Source of the DNA: Dysidea avara
Lineage: Eukaryota; Porifera; Demospongiae; Dictyoceratida; Dysideidae
Length of the DNA stretch: 64,000 nucleotides
Direction: 5' to 3'
NCBI RefSeq assembly: GCF_963678975.1
Contig: NC_089281.1
Location: forward strand, 28,107,151 to 28,171,150
Shown: piece by piece, positions 2,171 through 38,104 of the stretch
How positions within the stretch are numbered: the first letter of the stretch is position 1
Layout: each line of letters starts with the position of its first letter
Program-made: the position numbers and the translations under genes
Notes under the pieces: generated by a model
Seen by the model: only the letters and a program-made list of their open reading frames with translations
Told to the model about the DNA's origin: nothing
The model's database searches: none

Positions 2171-3413
2171 TGTGTAATGATTGTTTGAAACTGTCAATAG
2201 TTGGTTGGTTGGTTGATGATGTCTAGTGGTAGTCCATCCATTCAGGTATTGTTCTTGAATATTCATAGTTGTTGTCTATTGATGTATGATAAGTGTAGAA
2301 ATATTTGGTCATGGTTAGATCTTGTACAGGTGACAATGTTATTAATTAAGTAGCTGTTAGGTATTTCAGTTATGTAGGTTGTGAATAATTGTTAATCTAG
2401 CACATTTTCTATGTAATTGGAGTGGAGGCCATTCTAGTGATGTTAGCATTTCAGTTATGCTATCTCGCACATTCCTTCTCCATGGTCAATTGATTACTAG
2501 CCGCTTTGTGTTTCTGTTATTTAGGTGGTATGGGTCCCAAATTACTGCGGCATAAACCAGTTTTAAGTGTGTGTGAGCAGTTTCCTAAGTTACACTGTAA
2601 GAATCCGATTAGTTTGGTTGCTTATTGCATACATGGTTAACTTGTGGGCCCCAAGAAAGATGGTGATCTGTTATTATTCCGATGCAAGAATGCTTTTCAA
2701 CAACTTTGAGGGGTTTGTTTTACATGTGATAAAGAAATGTCGTTTTATGGTGGTGTTTGGATAACTGAAGAATGCAGTGCTTGTTAACACTGAATTTCTG
2801 TTTCAGCCCAGGTATTTAGTGTATTTAAGTCTTGTTGCAGTAACTATTGGTCATTAGGAGAATTTATTGGATGATAGATAAGACAGTCATTGGCAAATAA
2901 GCGAACAGTGCTCTGAATTAAATCATTTATATTATAGTGTTGGCCCTAAAACTGTACTCTGAGGCACTCCTTCACATGATGAATTTGTGCCCTCAATGAC
3001 TAATCTGTTGTGTAGGAAAGATGTGATCCACCATAGAGTTCAGTTTCTGTCGTATTCCATAATAATCTACTTTCTTTACAAGCCTGGTGTGTGGAACTTT
3101 ATCAAATACGTAGGTCCAGAATTCCAATGTCAACTTGTAGCCTATTGTTTAATGCACAAGCAAACTCATCTATTGTTAGCAGTAGCTAGTTGTGATTCAC
3201 AAGAGCATCTAGTTCTAAATCCATATGGTTATATATACAATATATTGTTTGTTCCCAGGTGTTTCATAATCTGACTGACTAAAATATGTTTCAAGGTTTT
3301 CCAGACAATGACACTGGACAATAATTAGATGGATCATTTCTTTTGCCTTTCTTAAATATTGGAGTTACAAAATTAATGCAGACTTCCACTCCTGTGGTAT
3401 ATCACCAGTTTTA

Positions 3414-4174
3414 GGGAAATTGGAAACAGTGGAAATGAAAACCGGAAACGGAAAGTGGAAATGGAAAACGGAAATGGTCAAATTGTCATATAAATGTACC
3501 CTAGAGTAAAACCCTTGTTCAGTGGCCACCTCTTAAAGACCACCTTCTTATAAAGACTGTCTCTGTACAAAGACCACATTGTAATTAATTAGATCTCAGG
3601 GATGGCTTAGCACCACTTTGTGGTCACCTTTGATAAAGACCACCTCATTACATGGTAATAATTTATTTGGTAAGCTTCAAACATGTATTTCATGACTCAA
3701 ATCAATGTCATCTCTTTGTCTACACTTCATTTAAGTCATATACCATCATCACTTAGTTTGTACCAGCACAGATAATACTATGGTACCACAGTGTGTCATA
3801 CAAAAATATTCCATGCAAGTGAAATGTAGCTAGTACACTGCAACAACGAAGAGCCTAGTCTTTTTAGTTGTTTTTGATAAAGCGGTCTGACATATATAGG
3901 ATGTTTAGAACCTAGCTATTATTGCAATGTGAAGAGGTGGTCTTTGTAAAGAGGTGATCTTTATAAAAGGTGACCATGCATGAAGTGGTCAGTATGCCTT
4001 GGCCATCTTTGAGATCTAATTATAATGTGGTCTTTGTACAGAGGTGGTCTTTATAAGAAGGTGGTCTTTAAGAGGTGGCCACTAAACATGGGTTTACTCT
4101 AGGGTACATTTATATGTCATTTTCCATTTCCACTTTCCGTTTCCGGTTTCCATTTCCACTGTTTCCAACTACCC
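3414..4174. mobile_element. Non-autonomous DNA element with long terminal inverted repeats
   Basis: Both ends carry matching inverted arms of more than 200 bp. Each begins with GGG followed by TTGGAAACAGTGGAAATG, then GGAAAC-rich sequence, then the block TATAAATGTACCCTAGAG. Further in, both arms repeat words such as AAAGACCAC and its complement GTGGTCTTT. The element splits the reverse-transcriptase relic between its GPDNIPA and WKTLKH blocks, which proves insertion. No coding sequence is visible and no clear target duplication was found, so the superfamily is open. Confidence 0.75.
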
Positions 4175-5111
4175 AATTGTTTATAGCATGGTGTTAACTG
4201 ATCATTGCTTAAGTATTCGAGCTGGAATGTTGTCTGGCCCTCTCACTTTGTGTGGATCTATCTTAGAGAAGAGAGCAAAGACATTTATTGAGAATTTCAG
4301 CTTTACAGGTTGGTGTTGTTGTACCTATTCCATCAGAGGTTTGTATAGAAAACTAATTCTGGTGTGGTCACAGTTCTGAGACTTGATGAAGTTCCAAAAG
4401 GTTCCTTTCAGCTTACTTGTAATATTAAGAATGTTGGTATGGTACTTGTTATGTTGTAGTCAGATGGATCGGTACACTTGTTGTTGAATGTTCTGTGCCC
4501 AATCAGTAGAGTTCACTTTGCTTTACTGTATATTAGTCTTTAAGGTAAGGTGTCATCTATGGAAGTTTCTGATTACTGATTTAGAGATATGTATACAGGT
4601 GTCAACAGCTTGTAAGAGTTTCCATGTGTGATATAGTTCCAGTTTTCTTCGGCAGATCTTGAGTTGGTCGAAAATAGTCTGTTGAAATACTGCTTACTTT
4701 GTCATGGAAAGAGACCCAGTCTGTTCTTATAAAACAATGCATTTTCTTTCTTGGTTTGCTATCTATAAGGAATACAATTTAACAGATCAAATTATGGTCA
4801 CTTAAATCAGAGACAGTTTTAGATTGTCAAATATAGCTAGGAGATATAAAACATAGGTATAAAGTATTTTCACTTCTAGTGGGCTAAGTAATTATTTGCT
4901 CTAATAGAAAGTCTTGGGATAACGAAATTCTCTAATGCTGCTGGAAATAAGATTAAGTTAGAAGACTAATCAATTTCTGGACAGTTAAAATCACCCCCAA
5001 AAATAAGTACTGCATAAAGAAAACGTTAATTAGTTTGTTGACTTTGTTGGATACATTTATAGTTCCAAAATTGAATTGAATTTGATATTGGAGAATGAGG
5101 GGTGTACCCTC

Positions 5112-5748
5112 CAGATTCGGTAGTGAAACTGTAGGTGTAGAGGTCTGGGACGCAGCCCCTAGGCACTGACAGATTTTGAACATTACAATGCTTCAAAATT
5201 TCTTAGATTCATGATTCATGGGTAGTAGCTATAAGCTATTTTCAATACATGCTTGGTTCCCTATAAGTCGTAAATGTCAATGGCCGCATGGTCAGATATT
5301 GTAGTGGCCCAAATATGTATAGCTATCCAAATTCTTTGATTTAACATTTAACTTAAGATTTAACATATTCAAATATTTATATAACATTTTAAATACCAAT
5401 TGCAGTCTGTTATGAATGTTCTATTAGAGTAGTTAGACTGCTCTATTGAATACATCTGGTTGCTCTATTATAGTATCTCAATCTTTATTAAATTAAGGCA
5501 TATCAGGCTTTGTTCTCCCTTAATATACACCGCTTTTAAGATATACTGTAGCTACCCTGCCCTGTTCCCATTTACTCCATACATTTGTGCTACCAAACTA
5601 CCTTCTCACAGGTCCCTAGTGGGGATAGCATTTAATAAATAAAACTAAGACAGTTTGGTGTTCTTGCTGCAAACCCACAAGTTAAAATTTCAGAGGGGGT
5701 TTCCAGAACTCCAGGACCCCCCTCCCCCCCCCAAATATGTCCCTGGAC
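5112..5748. mobile_element. hAT-type non-autonomous insertion (ends approximate)
   Basis: The retrotransposon frame stops inside the endonuclease PPHS region near 5112 and resumes at about 5749 with the preceding residues, so the DNA between was inserted. Its interior carries inverted copies of the CTCTAATAGAGCAGTCA-type motif (5420-5480) and a GTCTGGG..GCAGCCCC stretch found in other hAT-like elements here. Exact termini and target duplication are not resolved. Confidence 0.55.
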
Positions 5749-6299
5749 AGTAAAAAGATCCTAAAATTATATTGGGGTGGTTCTATAGATGTAATTGTGC
5801 CCACACTACTTCACATGGAGAATCTATTAACACTTGCAATGGAACAATTTTGTCAACTAATATGAACAATCCTCCACCATGACTGTTTCACCAAGTAGGC
5901 TAAATCTCTCATTTTGATTTCCTTTGCTTCCTTTCTATTATTCTAAGAATGTAGAACTGTGATTGTATTTAGCAGTGAGCAAAGTTACATTCTGTGAAAA
6001 TGATGGTGACTTGATGCAAGAGGAAATTCTCTTCTTTAAGAGGATAAAAAGTCTCATGTAGTGCCATTGCATTTGTACCACGTGTTACTGTGTACCTTTG
6101 GAGTGCCATTATAGGGACAAAAATGACCACTGTATGTAAAAAAGTGAAAAATAAAATAGAGCAGCCTGACTCCAGCAAATTCATTCATAATATATAATGC
6201 TTAAATTAAAATTTGCTACGTACCTTTAATTTTATCAATGGTAACCTGATCACTACAAATAATACTCACTGAGACCTTGGCATTATCTTGTCTACCTGA

Positions 6300-7504: not shown

Positions 7505-9041
7505 GCAATGACCTCTATCCGAAATGACGTCACGAAATAAAATGGCCGCCAATAGTAGAGGGACTTTAATATTTTCGAGTACAGGCGCCTATGGAGAAAA
7601 TTTTTTGATCGATCATATTTCTGCCGAGATAGAAGATACGGAGCTCTAACTATCAGGTATGGTTATAAATAATATAAGGATGAACTTACACTATAGTCGA
7701 AATCTACGATCAAAAAGCTTCCAAAAGACGCGTAAATGATTCATTCTAATGTCTTATAACCATACCTGTTGGCTGTAGCTCCGTATCTCTTTTCTTGGCT
7801 GAAATATGACCGATTATTATTATTATTATTATTATTACTAGGACCGCGTCACATACAACCAAGTACATACACCAACGTGACAGCCCCCCGGTGAGGCTAT
7901 TAGGTGGTGAATGCATTATCCCCAAATCAACTCAATATGTCACAGTAGTGACAGATATAACACAATAGTGGCATCGTAACTAAAGGCCACCAGTAGCTAA
8001 GTGCCAGTACATCATTGGTGTGGTAATGGCACAGTGATGTGTACAAAGTATATGTATACAAAACATACAGGAGAGAACTATACATTATTGCAGTATTGTA
8101 TGCAGCAATACATTATAGGCAACATCACCATGCAGATAAAAATTATTAGCCAATATACAGCAATGCATATCAACATCAACTAGAGCTAAGCAAGGTTCAT
8201 CAGTGATGTAGCAATGGCACAGTGATGGGTGAGTCTGACACACTATAGTTATGCATACACAACTTTCAGGAGATAGCTACACAATGCTGTAGGCGTATGC
8301 AAGCCAGATGAACCAGATAAAGGAAGACAGCCTAAGCCACTAGAGCCTAGTAGCTACGCCAGGTGAAGGCAAAAAAGATTAAGCACGTATTGAATTGCCT
8401 GACACCAACACAAAGAAAGTTCGCCATGCCAGCTGCACAAGACAAAATTGTTTACTTGTATTTTATATGTAACTGTAAGCTTATTGTAAAGAGCGTGGCA
8501 TATATCAGTTTAATGTTTTCTTGTATTGCTTATGTACGTGAATGAATCCACTGGCAGCTGGCATGGAGACTTGAGATGATACAAACATAAAAACTTACTT
8601 GTAATCTTCTTGTTTACACAAGTGGCTTCTGGCTCTCCTGCACGGGCATCACTAATCTTCTTCGCGCAATATGTAAGTAATTAAGCAAGGGTGTGGTACT
8701 GGGCGTTATATAGAATTACACGTATGGTCAAGTCATCAGCACAAACAGGAGCGACGATTATACGTTTGTGCCTTCATTCACAGGCGAATCTATCCCCGGT
8801 TAGTTCATGTCTCTAGGCCTCGTAGTTTTCTCAAACATTAATTATTAATTATTTATTTATTTAATTATTTATTTATTTATTTATGACGTAATTTTAACCG
8901 CGTTTCGTATTATTCTTAGTACTTGGTTGTATAATTATTAAATTTTTTTCTCCATAGGCGTCTGTACTCGAAAATATTAAAGCCCCCCTACCATTGGCGG
9001 CCATTTTATGTTTGTGACGTCATTTCGGATAGAGGTCATGG
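7505..9041. repeat. Inverted repeat duplicating the TRIM-NHL 5' flank
   Basis: The arm at about 7505-7608 is a near-identical reverse complement of 8942-9041. Shared blocks include GACCTCTATCCGAAATGACG, AAAATGGCCGCCAAT and TTTAATATTTTCGAGTACAG. The right arm is the immediate 5' flank of the TRIM-NHL gene and contains its ATG (9038-9040). In the left arm, read on the minus strand, the same triplet is ATT and no TRIM coding follows. The 1.3-kb spacer includes an (ATT)n run near 7818-7837, an (ATTT)n run near 8840-8884 and a second, shorter inverted repeat. The arrangement could be a foldback element or an inverted duplication that carried the promoter. Confidence 0.8.
7608..7815. repeat. Internal hairpin-forming inverted repeat
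   Basis: Positions 7608-7667 pair imperfectly with 7757-7815. Shared blocks are GATACGGAGCT and CAGGTATGGTTATAA, with an intervening loop of roughly 90 bases. It lies just inside the left arm of the larger inverted repeat. Confidence 0.7.
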
Positions 9042-11329
9042 CATCTGGTCGAGCCGAGTCGGGTCGAGCCGCATCTGGTGGTGTTGAGAATGAATCATGG
9101 CAACAGATCGAGGACGAAATAACTTGTTGTATCTGTGGAGATCTTTTTACTGATCCGAAGACCATCCCGTGTTTACACACGTTCTGTAAGCGATGTATTG
9201 AGAAGATTATGAAATCTAATAAGATGGCCGTTGTTTGTTGTCCGTTATGTCGTGCCCCTCTTTCACGAGACAAAGTACCAACTATTCCCACTAATTTTTT
9301 GATTAATCGTTTAGTGGAAATTTACAAGAAGAGACTAATAGCGACTCGAGAAGGTTCGGTGGAAACGAATTGTGATAATTGTGAGGTGAATGTAGCGATC
9401 ACGTGGTGTATAGAGTGTGATGGTAGTTTATGCCGCAATTGTAATGAAGCGCACAAGAAATTGAAATTGTCCAGGTGGCACAAAACTGTTTCCATTAAAG
9501 CATTTTTTCAAGATCCCAAACTAACCCTATCGACACTTGAAAAGGCAGAATTTTGCAAGATCCACACCAAGCAAACACTAGACCTGTTTTGCAAGACTTG
9601 TTGCAGTTTGATATGTCGAGACTGCACCTTGAAGGATCATCCTCGTGAAAAGCATGATTTTGATTTCATTGAAAATGTGGTAGGTAAAGAAAGAGAGAAG
9701 ACAAAACATGCTACAGCGTTACTGAAACAGTTGTTAGAACAAATGAGAAATGGAATAAAGAATATTGAACATTGTGAGAAACAAGTTGACATGGAGACTG
9801 CAGCGAATATTAAGAAGATACGAGCTACATATGGTGAGGTGTACAAGTTGTTGAAGAAACAAGAAGAAGAAACAGTAGAAAAGGTACTAACAATGAAGAC
9901 TTCATTTAAAAAGAGACTTGCCTTACAAAAAGAAAGTGGTCATTTGATTGAAGGCCATTTGGTAAGCTGTGACGAGTTTTGTAAAAAGATTATGACAGCC
10001 AACAGAACAAGGCAGTTACTGATGTACAATAAATGGATTGTGGGTAGAGTTGAAGAACTAAAGAAGCAAGTGGAATACACTAGTCGTGATCCAGAATGTA
10101 AAGCAAACAACATGATTGTTAACTATCGTAAACCAGTTGAGATTGTTAATGATTCACTTTGCGACGTGTTCTGTATGCCTATTTGTAGTTGTTCCCAGTA
10201 TGGTCAGATAATCAGGCCAGATCAAATTAAAGTTATTATCTTGCTAGAAGATATTGTTGAATCTCCTGTAGTGAACCAATCAAAAGATCTAGAAATTTGT
10301 GCCAACAAGGAGAGAGGGTTTATACATAATACACATATTGAAGAAGGGCCAAAAGGACAGTACCATATATGGTATAATCGGAAAAGAAATGAAGAACATT
10401 CCTTAACAGTTTACTGGAAAGGATTTGCACTAAATCATGAAAAAATTAGGGTTTCAATGAATATCCGAGACTATGCTACCATCAAGCAGGAGGTGAAGGT
10501 CATTAAAAAAGCTGATTACAAGAGCCTCGAAGATCCCTATGTGTTAGCAAAAGGACCTAACAGTGAGCTTATTGTTCGGAACGATTCTAAGAATCAATTA
10601 GCAGTATTTGATAAACACTTTCAGTTTTCACATGTTATTGGCGGGGTGAATAGTACTGGACATAGAAAGTTCCATAGTGTCGATATCACTGGAATAGCAG
10701 TAGACAAGAAGGGATACGTGTTTGTTGCAGCTTGTGAGTTGGGCTGCATCCAAAAGTTCAAACTAAGTGGAGAATTTATTGCTCAGTTTGGCAGTAAAGG
10801 TACTGCTGATGGCCAATTAAAGTGGCCTTGTGGTCTAGTCGTGTCTCAGTCAGAGATGTTATTTGTGTGTGACAATGGCAACCACAGAATTCAAGTTTTT
10901 GAAAATGAACGATTCTCTTACCGCTTTGGACAGTGTGGCTTAAAAAGTGGTACCTTCAATGAACCTAAAGATCTAACACTCAACAATAATGAAGATCAGT
11001 TGTTCGTTACAGATCATAAAAATAGTCGAGTACAGGTATTTACTATAACAGGACAATTCCTCAAAATATTTGGTGATTTCACTGGTGTCCCCTTCAAGTT
11101 GCAACATCCAATCGGGATACACTACACACCAGATGGACACCTCTTGATTAGCTCCTGTGACACAAACTGTGTGCTGGTGTTTAAAGAAGACGGGAAGTTT
11201 ATATCGGCCATTGAAGGTACCTACCAAGGCAAGGAAAGGTTTTGTCATCCTTGTGGAGTAGTGATGATGGATAATGGAGAGATAATAATAGCTGCTGGCT
11301 CAGATGGTAACAAACTTGTAGTATTTTAG
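9038..11329 (+). CDS. TRIM-NHL protein (RING, two B-boxes, coiled coil, filamin-like, NHL)
   Basis: This is an intronless gene of about 763 codons. I start it at the ATG at 9038 because the following MASG matches the start of the paralogue at 16727; an in-frame ATG at 9008 would add ten residues of 5' flank. Residues 30-71 form a C3HC4 RING (CCIC, PCLHTFCKRC, CCPLC). Residues 111-150 form a first B-box and 170-212 a second (CKIH..CKTC..CRDC). A glutamate- and lysine-rich coiled coil spans about 213-345, a filamin-like domain about 392-475, and six NHL repeats fill 497-763, ending KLVVF. RING TRIMs of this class are E3 ubiquitin ligases, and their NHL propeller recruits protein or RNA targets; this is inferred here. 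All key zinc ligands are present. The gene body and 3' flank recur as a broken copy at 22611. Confidence 0.95.
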   Translation: MASGRAESGRAASGGVENESWQQIEDEITCCICGDLFTDPKTIPCLHTFCKRCIEKIMKSNKMAVVCCPLCRAPLSRDKVPTIPTNFLINRLVEIYKKRLIATREGSVETNCDNCEVNVAITWCIECDGSLCRNCNEAHKKLKLSRWHKTVSIKAFFQDPKLTLSTLEKAEFCKIHTKQTLDLFCKTCCSLICRDCTLKDHPREKHDFDFIENVVGKEREKTKHATALLKQLLEQMRNGIKNIEHCEKQVDMETAANIKKIRATYGEVYKLLKKQEEETVEKVLTMKTSFKKRLALQKESGHLIEGHLVSCDEFCKKIMTANRTRQLLMYNKWIVGRVEELKKQVEYTSRDPECKANNMIVNYRKPVEIVNDSLCDVFCMPICSCSQYGQIIRPDQIKVIILLEDIVESPVVNQSKDLEICANKERGFIHNTHIEEGPKGQYHIWYNRKRNEEHSLTVYWKGFALNHEKIRVSMNIRDYATIKQEVKVIKKADYKSLEDPYVLAKGPNSELIVRNDSKNQLAVFDKHFQFSHVIGGVNSTGHRKFHSVDITGIAVDKKGYVFVAACELGCIQKFKLSGEFIAQFGSKGTADGQLKWPCGLVVSQSEMLFVCDNGNHRIQVFENERFSYRFGQCGLKSGTFNEPKDLTLNNNEDQLFVTDHKNSRVQVFTITGQFLKIFGDFTGVPFKLQHPIGIHYTPDGHLLISSCDTNCVLVFKEDGKFISAIEGTYQGKERFCHPCGVVMMDNGEIIIAAGSDGNKLVVF

Positions 11330-32132: not shown

Positions 32133-33010
32133 TTGGAATCTTGCCACAAGAAAGTGACACCTATTCTTAAGAAATATGAGACCAAGCTAACAAAACTTAA
32201 TTGCTCAGTCAGTCTTACACATCCACCCATGCACATTTATGTTTGCAGTAATGAAGACTATACTACAGCACTTTATGAATTGAACTCACTTTATGAATGG
32301 TCATTTCTTTGGCAATTGAGGTTTAACATCTCCAAGTGCAAGCATGTACACTTTGGACCAGAGGGTCGTATTAGTTGAACGGTAAAACTATTGACAGTAT
32401 CGAATGCCACAAGGACTTAGGCATCATCTTAGACCATCAACTTAAGTTCCACTCACATGCCACAGAGGTTGTTGCAAAAGCCAACCTATTTACTGGGATT
32501 GATCAGGAGATTTTTCAATCATCTGGATTCATTAAATTATTTACGGCTTTGGTATGTACCCTACACTTTAATATTGTAGTGTGGTATGGGGGCCATTCTT
32601 TATTCTCGATCAACATATTTGTTACCTTCAATTAGAGACCAGCCCTATGAGGAGAGACTTTCAATCCTTCAGTTACCATCTCTGGCTCATATAGGCGTCA
32701 CAGAGGTGACATGATACTACTACTATAAAAGATTCTTAATAAGTATTTTAATTCAGATTTTTCCATTTTATATACCTATTCCACTACCAACATCACCATG
32801 CAAGGGACACCACTTCAAACTGTTTAAATAGCATTCAAGATTAAACTGTTTAAATAGCATTCAAGATTAAACTGTAGATCAAAATATTTTAATTACTGAT
32901 TGGAACACTTTGCCTGCATTTGTAAATAGCATTAGATATCATAGATATCGTTGCCACTTAAACAACGTGTCTCACCACTCCTACTTTCAGATTACCACCA
33001 CCTTGGAATG
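32133..33010 (+). pseudogene. Non-LTR retrotransposon fragment, C-terminal ORF2 region
   Basis: The plus strand reads NISKCKHVHFG, then IECHKDLGIILDHQLKFHSH near 32400-32460, then RPYEERLSILQLPSLAHR near 32636 and, near 32890, NTLPAFVNS. This is the order of motifs after the polymerase core in CR1-like reverse transcriptases. Frames change at least twice and the catalytic core is absent, so this is a 5'-truncated dead insertion. Its wording differs from the element at 34008, so it belongs to another subfamily. Confidence 0.7.
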
Positions 33011-33625: not shown

Positions 33626-34007
33626 CTCATAGTTTCTACCTTATAAATGTGAAAATGAAGAAACTTCTATATGTTAGTAACAAAGATGAAGAACAAACCA
33701 AAGTTGAATCCAACCCTAACCCTATCTCAACAGAGGTATACTTATTGTGATAATGTCAGGACAGTTCTTTGTTGTCTTTTTTTGTATATGTATCTGTGAC
33801 ACTGTTTTCCTCAGTTACCATATATGCTCACAATGGATCTACTGTTCCGGCAGGCCAGGTGGATCTGATATATGGTCACAAGAGTTTGTCCGAGGATTCA
33901 AATGTTGTTTGTTGTTGTTTTTTTTGTACACTTTCACATGATTATCATTATTATCATTATTAATTAGCAAAGCCCACCAGGGGCAACACGCTAATGTGCA
34001 TTACAAA

Positions 34008-36914
34008 TCACAAATTGTTTAGCTTATCTATAATGTTCTTAAAAGTGTCAAGGTTAATTGTGTTAATGTTGTCAATTTTCAAGTTATTCCAATCAATAAT
34101 TGTTCTTGGCAGAAAAGAATACTTATATAAATCAATTCTGGATTGCAGCTGTGCAAATTTGAGGGGATTATTGGCACGAGTATATGATACAGGGGTTGGC
34201 TGGGGTAAACAATGGTTTGGTAGCACCAGTAAGTTTTTTACAATCTTGAATAATAATATAAGTCTAGCATTTCTTCTCCTACTTTTTAAACTTGGCCATT
34301 GAAGGTAATTAAGCATATCTGTAATACTGTGTTGTTGACTGGATCTGTGCCATGGTTTATTAAGAACAAATCTTGCAGCTCGGTGTTGGATCATTTCTAA
34401 TTTGCTAACTGTTGTTTGGTGATAAGGATCCCAGATGGCTGAGCAGTATTCAATAGAAGGTAACAATAATTGTTTGTATAAGTGTTCTTTGATTTGTATT
34501 GGGGCATTATATAAATTCCTTTTCAGAAATCCAAGAAGACGGTTTGCCTTTCCACAAATATAGTTAACATGAGGTTCCCATGATAGTGTATGATGGAGGC
34601 GGATACCAAGATAGGTGTGCTCTGATACAATATTCAATGGAATATTAGACATTTTATATGTAAAAGTGCTTTTACTGTGGTGGGTTGTAAATTGTAAAAT
34701 ATTGCATTTGGGAATGTTAAATTCCATCAGCCAGTTGCTAGCCCATTGTGTTAAGGAATCTAAGTCATTTTGCAGTATTCTGTGATCGTTGGGCGTAGCT
34801 ATAGTTTTAAAGAGTAGAATGTCGTCAGCAAATAATCTAATTTCACTCTTGATGTTTGTTACAATATCGTTAATGTAAATTAGGAACAACACAGGACCAA
34901 GTACAGAACCTTGTGGAACACCAGATGTAACTTGACATGTAGAAGATCTAGAGCCTTCTACTACAACCTGTTGGGTACGACCATGAAGGAAGGACTCTAG
35001 CCACTGTAAGACAGTTCCTCTTATACCATAGTAATTTAATTTGTAGAGAAGTCTAGAATGAGCTACTCGGTCGAACGCTTTAGAAAAGTCTAATATAGCA
35101 GCATCAACTTGCAGGTTCCTGTCAATATCTTTTGCAATGTCATTAACAGTAATGAGTAGTTGAGTCTCACAGGAATGTTTTGATCTAAATCCAAACTGGT
35201 TGTCTGAAAGAATATTGTGGTCCTCCAAATGCTTCATAATTTGACTCACGATGATATGCTCCATTGTTTTACAAACTACTGAGGTGAGTGAGATAGGACG
35301 GTAGTTGCCTGGGTGAGCTTTGGAACCTTTTTTAAATATTGGGGTGACATAGGCATGCTTCCATTGTAATGGGACTTCACCAGATTCTAGTGATTGTTTG
35401 AAAATATGAGTTAGAATGGGAGATAATTCGGCAGCTGTGGCCTTCAGTACATACGGATGCAAGGAGTCAGGTCCTGGGGATTTGGATGTGTCACAGGTAC
35501 TTAACAAGTTGTAGACTCCTTGTTCGGTAATCTCAAATGTAGGTAAAGATGGAAATAAGGATGGACCTTTGTCAGGAATGTTACTATTATCTTCGGATGT
35601 AAAGACAGACTGAAAGTGTTGATTTAGGGTGTCTGCTTTTTCCACAGGATTGGTTATGATATGACCATTTATAGGATTTATTAATGTACTAATACCATTG
35701 TTTTCTTGTTTTCGTGACTTGATGTAGTGCCATAAAGACTTTTTGTTACTGTCTGGTGATGAAGTTAGGTTTGTCAGGTAGGATTTGTGTTGGTACTTTA
35801 GTTTATGATCTATCTCTTTTTGTAATGATTTATATTCATTCCAGTCACTATCTCGACAATAACGCTTTGCTCTTCTATAAACTCTTTGCTTTTTACGTAC
35901 GAGTCGTTTTAAAGCAGAAGACAGCCAGGGAAGGTGAATTCTTGTACTTAATTTCTTGGTAGGAGTATGAGTGTTTATTATTTCTTGTAAATTTTGTAAG
36001 AAGAAGGACCAATTTTCATCTAAGCTTTGGGGTGATGCTTGATTTATTTCAAAGTAATCATGTGACAAGTCTGATAATTCCTCTCTTATTTTTTCCCAGT
36101 CAGCTAGCTTGTAAAGGTAAACAGTTCTGGGATGTTGTTTGATTACACGTTTAGGAATCTTGATGGACACTAAAACAACGTCGTGGTCACTCAAGCCTGG
36201 AAGTGGTTCACATGATATCACAGAATTAGGATTAGTAGTAAAGCATAAGTCTAAAACATTTTGAGCTCTTGTAGGGAAGGTGACTAACTGAGACAGTTGG
36301 TAGTTGTGTGATAAGTCAATAAGTCTTTCACGAAAGTGACATGATACATAGGAATTTATTAGTGTACTGTTTTCCCAGTCAATACCTGGACAATTAAAGT
36401 CACCTCCAAGAATGATGTGAGTGTGGGGATACTTTTGCTTAATCGTGTCTATGGAAGACTGCAAGTTGTCAAGTATTGTATCACTTGAGTGAGGAGGACA
36501 GTAAAAGGAGCCAACGATAAAGTCATTGTTCTTATCAAGATGAACGTGAGCCCACACTATTTCAATAGTTGAATTGTCATTAATTTGTGTACATGGTATA
36601 GAGCTCTTTATGGAAATAAACACACCACCACCAGAAGTGTTTCCGTCTTTTCTGTATGTTTGATAATTATTTGGGAAAACCTCAGAGTTTAGAATAGATT
36701 CATTCAAATGTGATTCTGTCCCTATAATGATGTCAATTGCATAGGTAACCAGAAAAACTTCAAGTTGGGTTCGTTTGTTAGTAACACTACAGAAATTTAC
36801 AATAGAGAGTTTCAAATCACTTAATACATTATTTGAGTTTGGGTTATTAGTAGAGTTATTAAATACCTGTGAATTTGAGTCAGGATTTGAGTTAGTTATA
36901 GTGGAAACAGGGAG
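34008..36914 (-). CDS. Retrotransposon ORF2: APE endonuclease and reverse transcriptase
   Basis: The frame is open from the codon after the ORF1 stop (36914) to its own stop at 34008-34010, about 968 codons. The N-terminal part is an apurinic-type endonuclease with GTESHLNESI, IILGGDFNCPGIDW and GLSDHDVVLV. The central part is a reverse transcriptase with NYRPISLTSVVCKTMEH, AILDFSKAFDRV, SGVPQGSVLGPVLF and the catalytic FADD. The C-terminus has SAIWDPYH and a SFLPRTIIDWNNL tail. The protein nicks DNA and copies its RNA at the nick. It has no ATG until 35264, within the reverse transcriptase; 36815 is only a TTG. It is in the same frame as ORF1, so production probably needs reading through the UGA or re-initiation at a non-AUG codon. 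Confidence 0.9.
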   Translation of the reverse strand, partial: LPVSTITNSNPDSNSQVFNNSTNNPNSNNVLSDLKLSIVNFCSVTNKRTQLEVFLVTYAIDIIIGTESHLNESILNSEVFPNNYQTYRKDGNTSGGGVFISIKSSIPCTQINDNSTIEIVWAHVHLDKNNDFIVGSFYCPPHSSDTILDNLQSSIDTIKQKYPHTHIILGGDFNCPGIDWENSTLINSYVSCHFRERLIDLSHNYQLSQLVTFPTRAQNVLDLCFTTNPNSVISCEPLPGLSDHDVVLVSIKIPKRVIKQHPRTVYLYKLADWEKIREELSDLSHDYFEINQASPQSLDENWSFFLQNLQEIINTHTPTKKLSTRIHLPWLSSALKRLVRKKQRVYRRAKRYCRDSDWNEYKSLQKEIDHKLKYQHKSYLTNLTSSPDSNKKSLWHYIKSRKQENNGISTLINPINGHIITNPVEKADTLNQHFQSVFTSEDNSNIPDKGPSLFPSLPTFEITEQGVYNLLSTCDTSKSPGPDSLHPYVLKATAAELSPILTHIFKQSLESGEVPLQWKHAYVTPIFKKGSKAHPGNYRPISLTSVVCKTMEHIIVSQIMKHLEDHNILSDNQFGFRSKHSCETQLLITVNDIAKDIDRNLQVDAAILDFSKAFDRVAHSRLLYKLNYYGIRGTVLQWLESFLHGRTQQVVVEGSRSSTCQVTSGVPQGSVLGPVLFLIYINDIVTNIKSEIRLFADDILLFKTIATPNDHRILQNDLDSLTQWASNWLMEFNIPKCNILQFTTHHSKSTFTYKMSNIPLNIVSEHTYLGIRLHHTLSWEPHVNYICGKANRLLGFLKRNLYNAPIQIKEHLYKQLLLPSIEYCSAIWDPYHQTTVSKLEMIQHRAARFVLNKPWHRSSQQHSITDMLNYLQWPSLKSRRRNARLILLFKIVKNLLVLPNHCLPQPTPVSYTRANNPLKFAQLQSRIDLYKYSFLPRTIIDWNNLKIDNINTINLDTFKNIIDKLNNL

Positions 36915-37904
36915 TCAGGATGACTCCATGCTTGTGGCAGAGGTATTATTAAGTGGCTGTGCTGATACAGTTACATACTCTAATTTGTTACCATCTGTAC
37001 TCACTTTGCAGTGAAGCTTGTTGTTGAGGTATAAGGAATCATTTCTTATTTTGATGTATCTCCGTTCGGTACCATTGTCAATTAGGGATCTCCTTTCCTT
37101 CAACAATAAGCGTTCCTTTTGACGCTCCTGGGGAGTTAGATCAGGTTTTATGTAGATTGGAGCTTCAAGCTTAGACTTAGAACTTAGGATGTCAATTGCT
37201 GTGTTTGAACGAAGGAACTTCACCAGAAGGGGTCTGGGACGCTCACTCTTTTGGTCATACTTGCCGAGACGATACAAATCTTTTATATCACTAGGTTCAA
37301 TGTCAATATCAGTTGCAGACAGAGCCTCCATCACGTTTTCCATGTCCTTTTTCATTCGGAGTTGTCTGTTGGTATTTTGGGGATTTTCTGCTACACCATA
37401 CACAACGATGTTGAATTTCCTATCAATGTTGGTGGCATTTTGATAGACAGTGTTTGAAACTTTGTCAACAACTGGAGCACGAACAGTTTGAGTAGAAGTC
37501 TGCTGTGGTTGATTAACAAGGTCTAGTTTGCGTTTAAGATCATTTAGAGAAGTTTGAAGTGTAGTAATGGTCGACATTAAGCTGTCTATTTCTGCCTTCT
37601 GCGCTTGGATCTCACAGTATAGACAGAAGAACGTGTGTTCTTCGCCAGCATCTCTTAATGTCGCGAAGTTCGTTGCTGATAACCCAGTGCATCTACGATG
37701 TACCCACGCGTCACAGTAGCCTTCACAATAGATTGCATCATCACCTTTCCTGTGCTTTGTAGCTTCTTTAATTACTTCATCGCATATTGGGCAAGTACTG
37801 TTTCTTTTGGGTTTCTTCTCGCGCTGGTTTGAGCTGTCTTTAGATCTCGGTCGTTTCAACGGCAGTAAACCTGGACTGGGAGTTGAAATTGCGTTCAACG
37901 ACAT
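36915..37904 (-). CDS. Retrotransposon ORF1: PHD finger and RNA-binding protein
   Basis: 329 codons run from ATG at 37904 to the UGA at 36917-36915. Residues about 38-98 form a PHD-like zinc finger (CPICDEVI, DAIYCEGYCDAWVHRRC, FFCLYC). A short coiled coil follows (about 100-130), then an RRM-like region beginning RKFNIVVYGVAE and containing RPRPLLVKFLRS. PHD-bearing ORF1 proteins are known from the CR1 group; they bind the element RNA, and the PHD may contact chromatin (inference). The stop is followed by CTC, and the next frame continues in register into ORF2. Confidence 0.85.
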   Translation of the reverse strand: MSLNAISTPSPGLLPLKRPRSKDSSNQREKKPKRNSTCPICDEVIKEATKHRKGDDAIYCEGYCDAWVHRRCTGLSATNFATLRDAGEEHTFFCLYCEIQAQKAEIDSLMSTITTLQTSLNDLKRKLDLVNQPQQTSTQTVRAPVVDKVSNTVYQNATNIDRKFNIVVYGVAENPQNTNRQLRMKKDMENVMEALSATDIDIEPSDIKDLYRLGKYDQKSERPRPLLVKFLRSNTAIDILSSKSKLEAPIYIKPDLTPQERQKERLLLKERRSLIDNGTERRYIKIRNDSLYLNNKLHCKVSTDGNKLEYVTVSAQPLNNTSATSMESS

Positions 37905-38104
37905 TTCTGTTCACGAAGGGGAAGGAAAGCACAACTTTTCTTCAGGAATATCTTCTTGGCAGCTTACTTTCAAGGAGACGACAAAAGTAGCTGCATACCA
38001 CAATCGAATTTTTTATTTTTTTCATGATGGTATTCACTATGTGGGACTGCTCACACAGTGACACTGAAACTGCCTCACACTCTTGGCCCTCACTCTCACA
38101 CATC

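Follow-up and report, generated by a model that had tools for sequence, protein, structure and literature searches.

A LINE of the sponge Dysidea avara with ORF1 and ORF2 in one frame, separated by a single UGA within a predicted hairpin

LINEs of the CR1/L2 lineage with a PHD-bearing ORF1 have been described, and those of types IIC/III combine a PHD in ORF1 with an ORF2 in which an APE-type endonuclease precedes the reverse transcriptase (RT) (PMC4120745). The main text of that paper uses 'stop codon' and 'frameshift' 0 times and, as far as that text goes, presents these elements as having two ORFs or a single ORF, with no readthrough of an in-frame stop described. In mammalian L1 and silkworm SART1 the second ORF is translated from the same RNA in a manner tied to ORF1 translation (PMC5009743, PMC5972666, PMC2881922): in L1 a spacer of 63 nt separates the two ORFs, and ORF2, though it has an AUG, is translated independently of it; SART1 has an overlapping stop and start, UAAUG. 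Gammaretrovirus gag-pol and the fungal LTR element VdLTRE5 place the polymerase in frame behind one stop, and readthrough has been shown or proposed for these elements (PMC5009743, PMC3441728), murine leukaemia virus using a UAG with a downstream pseudoknot. Recoding is also reported in LINEs, namely trypanosome and sea urchin elements with 2A sequences (PMC5972666). We found no LINE that reaches its ORF2 by stop readthrough in the open literature searched, outside of which much of the literature lies, and within that literature the nearest readthrough cases are the fungal LTR element and the gammaretroviruses.

The element described here lies on the minus strand of a 64,000-nt window (the whole stretch of Dysidea avara DNA that was analysed), with the following features:

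33941..38004, minus strand: LINE element, its 5' end placed at about 38000-38005 from six copies with different flanks
36915..37904, minus strand: ORF1, 329 aa, ATG at 37904, stop TGA at 36917-36915
about aa 38-97 of ORF1: PHD finger, from a PF00628 match below the Pfam cut-off and a Pygopus PHD match
36905..36933, minus strand: predicted hairpin, AAGCA-U-GGAGUCA-UCC-UGACUCC-C-UGUUU, the UGA being the part of the 3' arm nearest the loop
36915..36917, minus strand: ORF1 stop UGA, followed by CUC, the same in 8/8 copies read
36816..36914, minus strand: spacer of 33 codons (99 nt), Asn/Ser-rich, open in the ORF1 frame
36813..36815, minus strand: UUG, candidate non-AUG start, just 5' of the endonuclease
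34008..36914, minus strand: ORF2 frame with endonuclease and reverse transcriptase, 968 codons, stop at 34010-34008
35262..35264, minus strand: first ATG of the ORF2 frame, codon 551, within the RVT_1 match

Judged by its predicted domains, the element belongs with the PHD-ORF1 LINEs of the CR1/L2 kind (Jockey superfamily). The ORF2 frame has an APE-type endonuclease and then an RT in one ORF (PF03372 at aa 46-244, PF14529 at aa 134-247 and RVT_1 at aa 528-771, all exceeding their Pfam cut-offs), and ORF1 is of the PHD type, through a PF00628 match that is itself below the cut-off (E 0.0018, 18.7 bits, the Pfam cut-off being 24) and through matches to Pygopus PHD chains (phmmer, E 2.5e-4). The 3' end was set by eye, in the window copy alone, at the end of a short repeat tail. 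The short 3' region (33941-34007) ends in AATGAT-like repeats and has a 40-nt window at 33995 with z -2.8, a fold that, we presume, might suit a 3' stem-loop as in the CR1/L2 kind. A short upstream ORF of 8 codons, ATG to TGA (37970-37996), lies a few bases inside the 5' end, and its bases are present in all six copies that reach that end. Elsewhere in the window are degraded pieces of LINE relatives, at 2375-5887 (minus strand) and 32241-32598 (plus strand), 30-53% identical to ORF2 and too broken to show a junction, and a 782-codon open frame at 8981-11329 (plus strand) whose translation, judged by eye, resembles a TRIM-NHL protein that has a RING and a B-box. Further afield, pattern searches gave 4, 54 and 23 matches among viral contigs and 6 among genome contigs, with none confirmed, and a search of plasmids gave 10 records, all below 60% identity; the best 5 of these 10 matches were 23-27% identical, 4 of the 5 being annotated as group II intron or other RTs.

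When set against the known systems, this element differs from L1 in having no AUG near ORF2 and one frame shared by both ORFs, and from SART1 in having no AUG at the stop; a SART1-type stop-start coupling was rejected because the UGA at 36917-36915 shares no base with an AUG. It also differs from gammaretroviruses and VdLTRE5, which are LTR elements, in being a LINE, and from murine leukaemia virus in having a UGA and no downstream structure.

The earlier note had reported that the ORF1 UGA is followed by CTC, that this reading frame remains open beyond the stop for about 968 codons, and that its first ATG, at 35264, already lies inside the RT. The coordinates and counts proved correct, and the position inside the RT follows from codon 551 falling within the RVT_1 match. 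There are no ATGs in the first 550 codons of this frame (35265-36914) and 6 in the last 418, while the other two frames have 15 and 6 over the same 550 codons; position-specific composition leads one to expect 4.6 in-frame ATGs there, from which our own Poisson arithmetic gives a chance of about 1% for finding none. The prior chance that ORF1 and ORF2 would fall in one frame is 1 in 3. The spacer, which encodes, for example, the peptide NSNPDSNSQVFNNS, has 2 and 8 stops in its other two frames, and among 20,000 dinucleotide shuffles of its 99 nt, 7.9% left frame 0 open. Each of these observations is modest alone, but frame sharing, the open spacer and the lack of ATGs are jointly suggestive of more than chance. 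As in stop-codon readthrough elements, ORF2 follows a lone stop in the frame of ORF1, and the spacer between them is open.

To look at other genomic copies, as the earlier note had proposed, we searched the sponge's own 550.8-Mb assembly with a 901-base ORF2 probe whose nearer end is 15 bases from the UGA. This yielded at least 41 matches at 91-100% identity (a lower bound, with 40 of 88 candidates scored), of which 33 span all 901 bases. The junction was read in eight of these 33, the window copy (L001) and L002-L008, which are about 99% alike. UGA CUC is present in all eight, and none has a sense codon in place of the UGA; such a codon in most copies would, for the earlier note, have pointed to a chance mutation. 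In seven of the eight, the ORF2 frame is open across the 805 codons covered and has no ATG ahead of codon 551, its first Met; copy L006 has one stop and a one-base deletion in ORF2. ORF1 is open in all six copies reaching the 5' end, L007 and L008 being truncated within it, and the start points of these six are only a few bases apart while their flanks differ, so that they are separate insertions. Copies differ from the window at 10 to 16 positions in 2413 bases of ORF2, and pooled codon differences are 5 synonymous and 4 replacement in ORF1, 14 synonymous and 19 replacement (one a new stop) in ORF2, and 0 synonymous and 1 replacement in the spacer, so that the spacer gives no sign of coding constraint, as far as one change can tell. 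Considering that the copies are about 99% alike, they descend from one recent source, and this comparison shows that a source with this junction has moved, near-identical copies saying hardly anything about the age of the junction. The expectation that UGA, CTC and the missing AUG would recur was thus borne out, among near-identical copies only. Mutation of a single copy is ruled out as a whole account, since all eight copies read carry the junction, and chance mutation at the level of the family appears unlikely, as the UGA, the CTC and the absence of an AUG recur in young insertions at separate sites.

From the observed anatomy, frame and sharing among copies, we infer low-level readthrough into an ORF1-ORF2 fusion as our preferred reading, to which we give about an even chance. 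In such a recently active CR1/L2-like LINE, the endonuclease-RT would be made as a rare C-terminal extension of ORF1p: the majority of ribosomes would terminate at the UGA, freeing the PHD-bearing ORF1p, and a minority, reading UGA-CUC by means of a near-cognate tRNA, would go on to translate the spacer, endonuclease and RT. The product would be a fusion of about 1298 residues, with, presumably, a low ratio of polymerase to ORF1p. In its favour are the single frame with one UGA and no ATG over 550 codons, the UGA-CUC common to the copies read, the open ORF1 in all six that reach the 5' end, the open ORF2 frame in seven of the eight, a spacer open in the ORF1 frame alone, and an out-of-frame AUG-UAU-UAA at 36829, which a scanning ribosome would meet before the UUG at 36815. 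At the same time, the openness of the spacer by itself could arise by chance at the rate given above, and the stop context has the UGA-CU core, which speaks for readthrough, but lacks the strong UGA-CUA-G form. In Ustilago the minimal leaky motif consists of UGA plus a following CU, and this motif is active in HeLa cells too (PMC4207609); UGA CUA G is the stronger motif, and only 0.27% was obtained with a human UGA CUU G context (PMC4359377, PMC12233894). No readthrough value for UGA CUC was found in the open literature examined.

New to the original observation is that the UGA lies within a predicted hairpin. When the element was scanned for folding, in 202 windows of 40 nt, 200 windows of 80 nt and 198 windows of 120 nt, the lowest z fell at the junction at every size: -5.8 at 40 nt (window 36935, dG -13.6), -4.1 at 80 nt (window 36935) and -3.5 at 120 nt (window 36955). 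A near rival at 40 nt, at 34695, has z -5.6 in a weak fold with dG only -2.6. Because other 120-nt windows have better free energy, the claim made for the junction concerns z and not energy, and a 140-nt fold around the stop departs only mildly from the ordinary (z -1.7). The element contains three perfect 7-pair stems with loops of 3-8, of which the one at the stop is the most G+C-rich. When the codons next to it were recoded synonymously, an equally stable fold appeared in 204 (5' side), 300 (3' side) and 72 (both sides) of 20,000 draws, that is, in only 0.4-1.5% of recodings. The 12-pair hairpin with the UGA is predicted in all eight copies, the sole variant (in L005) falling on an unpaired base, a uniformity that in near-identical copies cannot show retention, and the hairpin was noticed post hoc. 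Readthrough stimulators usually lie downstream of the stop, yet we saw no structure 3' of the UGA, the windows from 36915 to 36815 being ordinary (z -1.4 to +2.2); such a downstream structure is not always needed. Moreover, with the UGA in the A site the hairpin would be melted, which counts against readthrough and would leave the hairpin to act on approach, after release or at some other step; it may slow approaching ribosomes or tune termination. The fuller picture of a gammaretrovirus-like LINE, with an ORF1p-ORF2p fusion made via a programmed leaky UGA and the stop set in a termination-tuning hairpin, we regard as somewhat short of an even chance.

The main rival to readthrough, which we consider possible but well below even, is termination followed by AUG-independent reinitiation, a mechanism proposed for mammalian L1; the restart would be at a non-AUG codon such as the UUG at 36815, which borders the endonuclease. 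There are LINE precedents for such reinitiation in the AUG-independent ORF2 of L1 and the coupling in SART1 (PMC5009743, PMC5972666, PMC2881922, as far as the cited texts go), and the UUG lies directly ahead of the endonuclease (its location with respect to the first endonuclease strand was judged by eye). The predicted structure sits exactly at the stop, where it might hold or place a post-termination ribosome. Frame sharing would then be incidental, however, and both the 1 in 3 coincidence of frame and the open in-frame spacer, with its 7.9% probability by chance, would be left unexplained, while the out-of-frame AUG at 36829 would obstruct scanning to the UUG.

Other routes to ORF2 seem improbable even when taken together, namely conversion of the UGA to a Trp codon by A-to-I editing, splicing, an internal ribosome entry site, selenocysteine and a 2A skip. 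Editing gains some appeal from the 12-pair hairpin that encloses the UGA in every copy read, since a change of its A would yield the Trp codon, but the stem is short and that A follows a G, a neighbour that ADAR enzymes disfavour. Selenocysteine was rejected, as no motif was seen and no Rfam family reached the gathering score on the element, the one snoRNA match being sub-threshold. NPGP is the 2A motif, and by eye none is present in the translation near the junction, so that a 2A skip was likewise rejected; unlike the 2A LINEs, this element has a true stop codon there. Still less probable, in our estimate, is that the UGA or the loss of the AUG is a recent defect of the source element, which would then have been spread in trans by another family, the ORF2 of the present copies being unmade or unneeded. 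Help in trans among LINEs is known, and copies about 99% alike would fit a single recent source, but ORF2 has stayed open over the codons covered in seven of the eight copies, and its 14 synonymous to 19 replacement differences include fewer replacements than the ratio of roughly 3:1 that our own rough arithmetic leads one to expect without selection.

How the ORF2 protein is synthesised in two-ORF LINEs is still an open matter, L1 included. In this young sponge family the lack of an ORF2 AUG together with a single in-frame UGA takes an AUG out of the question, and ribosomes would reach the polymerase either by UGA readthrough, for which the chances seem balanced, or, with lower probability, by AUG-independent restart; the junction, about 100 nt long, is small enough for a reporter test, whose outcome would be informative either way. 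An AUG-less restart, if true, would give the L1 puzzle its second natural example. Readthrough, if true, would mean that a LINE has solved the problem much as retroviruses do and, if programmed, would set this way of making ORF2p apart from the AUG-independent and stop-start mechanisms that are known for LINEs.
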